Assembly (NCBI GenBank): GCA_035477215.1
Contig: DATIKU010000047.1
Span: 1-64,000, forward strand
Direction of reading: 5' to 3'
DNA from: Spirochaetota bacterium
GTDB lineage: Bacteria; Spirochaetota; UBA4802; UBA5368
DNA length: 64,000 nucleotides
The number at the start of each line of letters is the position of its first letter. The stretch's first letter is position 1. Positions 33,034-36,193 of the stretch are shown here, one piece after another. Both the position numbers and the translations under genes were made by a program. The notes below the pieces were generated by a model, which saw only the letters and a program-made list of their open reading frames with translations, had not been told where the DNA came from and searched no databases.

Positions 33034-33062
33034 TTGACAAAAAGATGAAGATATCATATAAA
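33034..33062 (+). promoter_or_regulatory. Strong promoter of the Rrf2-regulator operon
   Basis: TTGACA (33034-33039), 17 bases, TATAAA (33057-33062). The start codon cannot be at 33045 because the -10 lies downstream of it, so GTG 33093 is used. Rrf2 proteins commonly bind their own promoters. Confidence 0.85.
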
Positions 33063-33092: not shown

Positions 33093-33533
33093 GTGCTTTC
33101 ACAAACCGCGCTCTATTCGATTCGTGCAATGTCTTATATCGCGGCTTTCGGAATGGAGAAACCCGTACTCGCGAAGACAATCGGTGAGGAAATGGATATA
33201 CCGCTTAATTTTTTATCCAAGATCGCGAACAGGCTGGTGCAGGCGGGGCTGTTGCATTCGGTGCGCGGTAAAAACGGCGGTTTCGTCCTGGCCCGGCATC
33301 CCGGCGATATTCACCTGGGTGAGATCGTGTCGCTCTTCATGAATCTCGGCGATATCAGAGGGTGTTTTTTGGGCTTGAACCGGTGTTCTACCGGGTGTGC
33401 GATACACGAAAAATGGACATCGATTGTGGATCAGTTCCAGGCCATCATAAATGAAACGACGATCGACCAGGTGCTGAAAACCGGAGAATGCCGGAAGGCA
33501 AAATCATCAAAAGGAGGAAAGACGCATGAGTGA
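33093..33533 (+). CDS. Rrf2-family, NsrR/IscR-like iron-sulfur regulator
   Basis: The product is 146 residues from GTG at 33093, with AGGGAGA 6 bases upstream and a strong promoter just before. It has the Rrf2 winged helix (LSQTALYSIRAMSYIA; IPLNFLSKIANRLVQAGLL; SVRGKNGGFVLAR). Three cysteines in GCFLGLNRCSTGC (C-x6-C-x3-C) are placed like the cluster ligands of NsrR/IscR. Such regulators sense nitric oxide or Fe-S status. It overlaps the DUF438 gene by 8 bases, and a ruined flavodiiron gene follows, which favours an NO-sensing role; that is inference. Confidence 0.9.
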   Translation: MLSQTALYSIRAMSYIAAFGMEKPVLAKTIGEEMDIPLNFLSKIANRLVQAGLLHSVRGKNGGFVLARHPGDIHLGEIVSLFMNLGDIRGCFLGLNRCSTGCAIHEKWTSIVDQFQAIINETTIDQVLKTGECRKAKSSKGGKTHE

Positions 33534-34758
33534 ACTTATCGACAACGCGAAGAAGAAGCGGGAAATACTTAAAGACCTTATACGCAGGCTGCACGACGGC
33601 CAGGCCGAGAGCGAGGTGCGAAGCCAGTTGCAGCAGTTGCTGGGAAGCATCCCTTACGAGGACGTCGTGAAGGCGGAACAGGAGCTCATCAACGAGGGCC
33701 TTCCCGCGGAGGAGGTGATCAAGCTTTGCGATGTGCACACATCCGTACTGAAGGGGAGCATCGACCAGTCGGGCACAAAAGACGCTCCCGAAGGCCACCC
33801 GGTCCATACGTTCCGCCAGGAGAACATCGCGCTCAACCGGGAGGCGGGAGCGCTCGGGGCGCTGTATGAGAAGGCGCCAGCCATCGGCCGTGATGGCGCG
33901 GAGGGGTATATCAATACGATGCGCGGGCACTTCAATGCGCTTATGGATGTTGACAAGCACTACCGGAGAAAGGAATACCTGCTCTTTCCATTTCTCGAAA
34001 AACACGGGATAACGGGACCGCCCAAGGTGATGTGGGCCAAGCACGACGAGGCGCGGGCCATGCTGAAGAAGGCGCTTGCCGCCCTGGAGACCGCCCTGAA
34101 AAATCCGGAGAACCTACAAAGGCTTGTCGATGCGGATCTCAAGCCGGCCTCCGGGGCGGTGCTCGACATGATCTACAAGGAGGAGCAGATCCTCCTGCCG
34201 ACGAGCATTGACACGCTTGGCGAGGATGAATGGTACGAGGTTTACCGCCAGAGCGACGAGATCGGGTATTGCCTGTACGATCCGAAGACGAAGTGGATGC
34301 CGGAGAAGATTTCCGCTGAAGCGATGACGAGCGCGGCGGTCGCAAAGAGCGGCCGTATCCAGCTTCCTTCGGGAAGCTTCACCGCGCAGGAGCTTACCGC
34401 CATGCTGAACTCTCTTCCGGTCGACATCACCTTCGTCGATGCGGACGACACCGTGCGCTATTTCTCCCAGGGTCCCCATCGCATCTTCGATCGGAACCGC
34501 GCCATACTGGGAAGAAAGGTGCAGCTCTGTCATCCGCCGCACAGCGTGAACATCGTCGAGCGCATAATCAGAGATTTTCGCATCGGCGCGGAGGACAGTG
34601 CGGCCTTCTGGATACGGATGAATAAGAGGTTCATTCATATCGAATACTTCGCGCTGCGGGACGAGGAGGGCGCTTACCTGGGAACTATGGAGGTCTCCCA
34701 GGACCTTACGGAGAAGCGCCGTCTGGAAGGAGAGCAGCGTCTGTTGAACTACAAATAA
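33526..34758 (+). CDS. DUF438 / hemerythrin / PAS protein
   Basis: The 410-residue protein has an N-terminal DUF438 domain (about 1-75; LKDLIRRLHDG, HTSVLKGSI), a hemerythrin-like HHE domain (about 95-235) with His/Glu ligands in RGHFNALMDVDKHYRRKEY, WAKHDEARAM and IYKEEQILLP, and a C-terminal PAS-like domain (about 285-400; VDITFVDADDTVRYFS). Related proteins bind diiron or heme and are regulated with nitric-oxide or oxygen defence. AAGGAGG is 7 bases before the ATG, inside the rrf2 end. Confidence 0.92.
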   Translation: MSELIDNAKKKREILKDLIRRLHDGQAESEVRSQLQQLLGSIPYEDVVKAEQELINEGLPAEEVIKLCDVHTSVLKGSIDQSGTKDAPEGHPVHTFRQENIALNREAGALGALYEKAPAIGRDGAEGYINTMRGHFNALMDVDKHYRRKEYLLFPFLEKHGITGPPKVMWAKHDEARAMLKKALAALETALKNPENLQRLVDADLKPASGAVLDMIYKEEQILLPTSIDTLGEDEWYEVYRQSDEIGYCLYDPKTKWMPEKISAEAMTSAAVAKSGRIQLPSGSFTAQELTAMLNSLPVDITFVDADDTVRYFSQGPHRIFDRNRAILGRKVQLCHPPHSVNIVERIIRDFRIGAEDSAAFWIRMNKRFIHIEYFALRDEEGAYLGTMEVSQDLTEKRRLEGEQRLLNYK

Positions 34759-34761
34759 GAT

Positions 34762-35240
34762 TATGAGAGGGCAAAACATATAAGCATCAACATCAAAAAC
34801 AATGTTTGCCGGGTCGGGAAAGTCGACCGGGAGCTAAGGCGCTTCCACGGCAGCGGGTATTCCACCCACAGGGGCTCCGCTTACAACTCGTACCTGGTCC
34901 GCGAAGGAAAGACAGCGCTTGTTGATACCGTGCGGGCGCCGTACGCAAGGGAATATGTCGGCAATCTGGAGAAGACGCCCACGGTAAACCGGGGAGTTAT
35001 GAGCTCGCTCGCCGGGCTCCTGGAGGATGTCCGCGGACTCGGGTTCAAGGGGAAAAGTCCGCGGCTTTAGGAACCTGCGGATGGAGCGGCGAATCGATAA
35101 AGATGCCTGAAGGGATGTTGAAGAACTCCGGCTTCGAGGTGATGGAAGGCGGTCCGCGCGTTCTGTGGAACCCGGACGGGGATGCGGTCGCGCGTTGCCG
35201 CGATTTCGGCAGGCAGATTGTCGCTTTCTTCGCTCCTTGA
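34762..35240 (+). pseudogene. Remnant of an A-type flavodiiron protein gene (FprA/ROO-like), internally deleted and frameshifted
   Basis: From about 34762 one frame gives AKHISINIKNNVCRVGKVD, then FHGSGYSTHRGSAYNSYLVREG and ALVDTVRAPYA, matching the N-terminus of flavodiiron NO/O2 reductases. It jumps directly to TPTVNRGVMSSLAGLLEDVR, the late flavodoxin domain. A frame change in GGGGAAAAG near 35053 leads to GTCGWSGESIKMPEGMLKNS and CRDFGRQIVAFFAP, the usual C-terminus. Missing are about 240 residues: the diiron ligands and the FMN P-loop. No start codon is in frame. The intact gene would be about 1,190 bases; this is 479. It is downstream of the DUF438 gene by 3 bases, as an operon member would be. 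Confidence 0.85.
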
Positions 35241-35383: not shown

Positions 35384-36193
35384 ATGAAGTCACTTGAAAA
35401 AAAGGTCGCCGTAATAACCGGCGCCGCGTCCGGTATCGGCCGCAGCCTTGCGCTCGGACTGGTGAAGGAAGGATGCTTTCTTGCGCTTGCCGACCATAAT
35501 AAAAAGGGGCTCGACGAAACCGTCCGCATGGTCAAGGAGGCCGGAGGTGCGGCCATGTCGCAGGTCATCGATGTCGCCAATCGATCCCAGGTTGAGCGCT
35601 TCGCCGCCGCGGTAATTAAAAAATACAAGCAGGCCGACATCATCGTCAACAACGCGGGTGTTACGCTTTTCGGCAGGCTCGAGGATGTGAGTTATCGTGA
35701 AATCGAGTGGATAATGGGCATCAACCTGTGGGGGGTGGTGTACGGCACGCGCGCCTTCCTTCCCCATCTCAAAAACCGCCCCGAGGCGTGGGTGGTGAAC
35801 CTCTCGAGCGCGTTCGGACTTATCGGCGTGCCCTCTCAGACCACCTATTGCGCAACTAAATTCGCGGTGAGGGGCTTCACCGAGGCGCTCCAGCGCGAGC
35901 TGAAGGGCGCAAAGGTCACCGCCATCTCCGTTCATCCCGGGGGGATTAAGACAAATATAGCGCATAACGCGAAATTCGCCTCGCGGTTCGGGAAGGACGC
36001 CGGCAAGAAGTTCGCCAAAAGCTTCGATCGCATAGCGCGGACGAGCGCGGACGATGCCGCGAATGCGATAATCGGCGCCATAAAAAAGAAGAAAAGGCGC
36101 ATTCTCATCGGATCGGATGCGAAGCTCATCGACATCGTACAGCGTCTCTTTCCGACGTCGTACGGAAAAATCATGGACCTCCTGTACGGGTAG
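35384..36193 (+). CDS. Short-chain dehydrogenase/reductase
   Basis: The product is 269 residues from the ATG at 35384 (CGGGGGGA 5 bases upstream); ATG 35363 is a weaker option. It is a classical SDR: TGAASGIGRS near 12-21 (NAD(P) binding), NNAGV near 90, catalytic Ser in VNLSSAFG, Tyr/Lys in TYCATKFAV. A C-terminal basic extension (IIGAIKKKKRRIL) is common in SDRs acting on lipids and in YqjQ/SadH-like members. Substrate is unknown. Confidence 0.9.
   Translation: MKSLEKKVAVITGAASGIGRSLALGLVKEGCFLALADHNKKGLDETVRMVKEAGGAAMSQVIDVANRSQVERFAAAVIKKYKQADIIVNNAGVTLFGRLEDVSYREIEWIMGINLWGVVYGTRAFLPHLKNRPEAWVVNLSSAFGLIGVPSQTTYCATKFAVRGFTEALQRELKGAKVTAISVHPGGIKTNIAHNAKFASRFGKDAGKKFAKSFDRIARTSADDAANAIIGAIKKKKRRILIGSDAKLIDIVQRLFPTSYGKIMDLLYG

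Follow-up and report, generated by a model that had tools for sequence, protein, structure and literature searches.

Recent loss of a NorV-type flavodiiron gene in an anaerobic spirochaete that keeps the adjoining Rrf2 regulator and DUF438-hemerythrin-PAS genes

In several bacteria the ric genes are repressed by NsrR (PMC9268430), for which an operator of the form gATGyAT-N5-ATrCATc has been published (PMC1274295). The locus described here has genes of comparable kinds, and one of them is broken. The window analysed is a stretch of 64,000 nucleotides within contig C47 of a single MAG from an anaerobic spirochaete (G000; 3.57 Mb, 95.5% complete), and comparison was made with four congeners (G001 to G004), G004 being only 77% complete. 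Between positions 33034 and 36193, all on the forward strand, are found in order a promoter, a gene for an Rrf2-family regulator, a gene for a DUF438-hemerythrin-PAS protein, the remnant of a flavodiiron gene, and a gene of the SDR family (35384 to 36193) that marks the edge of the locus here and in three of the congeners and provides a synteny anchor.

The joined two-frame translation of 34765 to 35240 matches E. coli flavorubredoxin (E=8e-32) in two separate pieces, with the N-terminal part of the remnant covering residues 2-64 and the C-terminal part residues 307-394. Both ends thus belong to a single flavodiiron family, as a preliminary description of this DNA had proposed in calling them the ends of one FprA-type gene. 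A Pfam search did not recognise the remnant. Three of the four congeners (G001-G003) have an intact orthologue of 400-407 amino acids at the same site, between the DUF438-HHE-PAS and SDR genes, to which the remnant is 65-75% identical, and the G003 protein passes the NCBIfam model PRK11921, "anaerobic nitric oxide reductase flavorubredoxin", with 720 bits against a cut-off of 635. In G004, at 77% completeness, neither a DUF438 gene nor a NorV-type flavodiiron gene was found. We read 34786 to 35240 as a unitary pseudogene of a NorV-type flavodiiron protein, formerly third in an operon of the order rrf2-DUF438/HHE/PAS-flavodiiron, and assign this reading a probability of about 0.93.

Alignment with the congener DNA revealed lesions along the length of the remnant. 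The start codon ATG has become ATA at 34786, and no in-frame ATG, GTG or TTG lies ahead of the conserved part. A spacing of 3 bases from the DUF438 gene, given in the preliminary description, proved wrong, since it rests on an ATG at 34763 that is out of frame and meets a stop after six codons; the codon that aligns with the congener starts is the ATA. The 5' remnant (34786 to 34977) ends at a deletion junction (34976 to 34979, in CTGGAGAAGACGCCCACG at 34966-34983), where 244 codons (732 bp, residues 70-313 of the G003 protein) have been removed in frame, in good accord with the approximately 240 central codons first estimated. The diiron-ligand motifs (HxExDH...H...D...H), at about 81-233 of the G003 protein, all fall within the deleted segment, and the window copy does not carry the ligands of a working flavodiiron enzyme. 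The first part of the 3' remnant (34978 to 35069) runs into a one-base frameshift somewhere in the G/A run at 35050-35056 of GGGGAAAAG, where the window is one base shorter than all three congeners, and the frame change earlier noticed near 35053 is therefore real. This lesion is separate from the deletion, being about 75 bases away from the junction. The second part (35070 to 35240; GTCGWSGESIK...) continues in the frame of 34764 and has a TGA at its end.

Protein-level constraint on the remaining sequence has been lost as well. At residues common to the three congeners, the remaining 141 codons of the remnant have 17 amino-acid changes (the congeners themselves have 3, 3 and 11), including W to R three times, Y to C twice and L to P twice. 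Changes at the three codon positions number 10/9/6 in the remnant versus 13/10/33 in the DUF438 gene (Fisher p=0.004), and the dN of the remnant is higher on the G000 branch than on that of G003 by 0.065 (95% interval 0.020 to 0.111). Disabling lesions thus occur together with relaxed constraint relative to intact orthologues, a pattern that is one of drift without constraint rather than of sequencing noise or simple assembly collapse. Among the lineage-specific changes at codon positions 1 and 2 of the remnant, 11 are A:T to G:C and 2 are G:C to A:T transitions, which are small numbers; this excess is the reverse of what mutation bias usually produces and of what the neighbouring genes show.

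The preliminary description had left the choice between lineage loss and a collapsed assembly, and the first part of that alternative is the one that stands. The contig does come from a MAG, and in principle the organism might have an intact gene and the contig be collapsed or misjoined, but a misjoin would not also cost the start codon, shift the frame some 75 bases off and leave 17 conserved-site changes. Moreover, the missing segment, with the catalytic domain, is absent from all other contigs of G000 when the genome is searched, and any repeat at the junction is at most a few bases long. Given start loss, deletion and frameshift as several independent lesions, together with radical substitutions and lost codon periodicity by comparison with intact congeners, an assembly artefact is therefore highly improbable. 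Even less credence is given to the idea that the remnant encodes a new short protein, retained for another use. The in-frame deletion would suit such a product, as would a 5' part that is free of stops when read in frame with the DUF438 gene; the remnant, however, has no usable start codon and is frameshifted in its middle, its changes are even over codon positions, and its dN is elevated. The loss of the gene at 34786-35240 is true, recent and well documented, and is ordinary in kind.

The genes upstream of the pseudogene have fared differently. The Rrf2 and DUF438-HHE-PAS proteins are 82-86% and 83-87% identical in the congeners, respectively, and neither gene shows decay on the G000 branch, the dN excess over G003 being -0.004 (-0.030 to 0.028) for Rrf2 and 0.010 (-0.010 to 0.030) for DUF438. 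For the SDR gene the excess is mild, and its interval includes zero. That the reductase was lost while the regulator and its DUF438 partner were kept, as first described, is thus supported. With regard to the retention half only, the two genes could be merely lagging and already useless, and the loss is indeed recent, at approximately one fifth of the time since the G003 split by a rough calculation. Joint neutrality, however, predicts a dN excess near 0.065, and the excess of about 0.01 or none in Rrf2 and DUF438 indicates that they were not neutral together with the reductase; in addition, the promoter retains a good -35/-10 pair. We consider lagging of this kind unlikely. Operator decay in G000 was considered and rejected: the palindrome is weaker than in G002 and G003, but it is equally weak in G001, where the reductase is intact.

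The Rrf2 regulator (33093 to 33533; Pfam Rrf2, 92.6 bits) has a probable GTG start at 33093, placed from the promoter position and the alignment, and its three Cys (CX6CX3C) are conserved in four species. The promoter/operator element upstream of rrf2 (33034 to 33062) consists of TTGACA, 17 bp and TATAAA, with the core GATGAAGAWRT, and when aligned with the three congeners, TTGACA-N4-GATGAAGAWRT is present upstream of rrf2 in all four species. The Rrf2 protein would repress this element and release it upon NO or similar stress. The same element precedes a COX1-family protein of 746-752 amino acids in G001 and G002, a putative quinol-type NO reductase (qNor) judging from its Pfam COX1 match, its length and our reading of the sequence; no NCBIfam model reached its threshold with this protein. 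With zero mismatches, the pattern occurs in the five genomes only upstream of rrf2 and of the qNor gene in G001 and G002, the few control hits being listed without their mismatches. As the sites at qNor are orthologues of each other and were both in view when the pattern was drawn up, they amount to one independent observation. The putative qNor was not found in G000, where flanks of both congener locations occur without it: contig C49 continues past the DAGK and cation transporter genes (L148:1586-2166 = L159:3698-4278), and contig C48 has the purB-side flank. A small Rrf2-controlled NO regulon is likely, lacking both reductases here and keeping the regulator and the DUF438 protein. A qNor site common to the ancestor was not upheld, since qNor in G003 occupies a different place, has no such operator and lies close to a gene for rubredoxin. 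In that region of G003 (L149:657-3793), a Usp-like gene and one for a YtfE-like hemerythrin protein also accompany the qNor gene, which was perhaps acquired separately.

The DUF438-hemerythrin(HHE)-PAS protein (33526 to 34758, 410 amino acids) is encoded by a gene that overlaps the end of rrf2 by 8 nt, and it matches Pfam DUF438 (84.9 bits, cut-off 25), Hemerythrin and PAS_10. A search of the available literature on DUF438 function found no functional study. A flavodiiron gene adjoins the DUF438 gene in 5 of 63 fetched relatives (L036-L038, L057 and L083), and the rrf2-DUF438-flavodiiron order recurs in L083, a Bipolaricaulota contig. As DUF438 proteins are commonly without a flavodiiron neighbour, retention of the gene in G000 is not strange. 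The protein most likely binds NO or O2 at the HHE diiron site and signals or helps repair iron centres, and would still be useful alone. A tentative proposal, to which we give somewhat less than even odds, is that it serves as an independent NO/O2-responsive effector of Rrf2, the sole known output left to the regulon, and has stayed under selection since the death of the reductase. In other phyla or families (L040, L041, L044, L057), DUF438 genes often adjoin a small gene whose product has VSRT...G.VTLFAFD.G..LSEHTAPFD, appears cupin-like by eye and may be another partner.

The intact enzyme would have reduced NO with electrons from rubredoxin, its preference for NO or O2 being uncertain from sequence, and presumably became dispensable in the G000 lineage, with any need for NO removal perhaps covered by NrfA or a second flavodiiron protein, or with NO supply low. 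NrfA is retained in G000. Flavodiiron capacity was not lost altogether, since contig C61 encodes a second, different flavodiiron protein of 386 amino acids, followed by rubredoxin and by genes that we read as probable cydAB and rubrerythrin. This protein has 73% identity with a G005 protein and about 40% with the NorV type, and falls below the NorV cut-off (385 versus 635 bits); its context suggests a role in oxygen defence. Replacement of the dead gene by this second gene was not upheld, the related genome G006 carrying a gene of each type. Loss of Hcp was likewise set aside: PF03063 matches in the congeners resembled Hcp, but the one tested is a CO dehydrogenase (TIGR01702). In the congeners (L134, L135, L136), CO dehydrogenase has a large ACS-sized gene beside it, and a PF03063 search of G000, at 95.5% completeness, returned nothing, a possible loss of the Wood-Ljungdahl pathway.

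The locus provides a clean case in which an NO reductase has been lost while its regulator and partner remain under selection, and it indicates that the DUF438-hemerythrin-PAS family, which is poorly studied, has a function separable from the reductase that accompanies it in the genus. It further offers a two-promoter regulon with a directly testable operator motif, and a warning for annotation that an Rrf2-DUF438 pair is not proof of a working flavodiiron reductase.

Among known systems, E. coli NorV is the nearest solved structure to both remnant ends and to the intact congener orthologues. In the congeners the protein stops at about residue 400 and so lacks the rubredoxin domain that E. coli NorV has at its C-terminus; the window copy, unlike NorV, is without the whole catalytic core. 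The DUF438-HHE-PAS protein resembles YtfE/RIC in having a hemerythrin-like HHE domain within an NO-associated operon, but differs in its N-terminal DUF438 and C-terminal PAS domains and matches no NCBIfam RIC model. As in NsrR regulons, an Rrf2 regulator with conserved Cys is found beside a hemerythrin-domain gene and NO reductases; however, the name NsrR-like, used in the preliminary description, does not apply in a strict sense, as the protein reaches 54 bits with the curated NsrR model, whose cut-off is 182, has the Cys spacing CX6CX3C, and is associated with an operator, GATGAAGAWRTCTTAT, that is unlike the published NsrR motif (PMC1274295).
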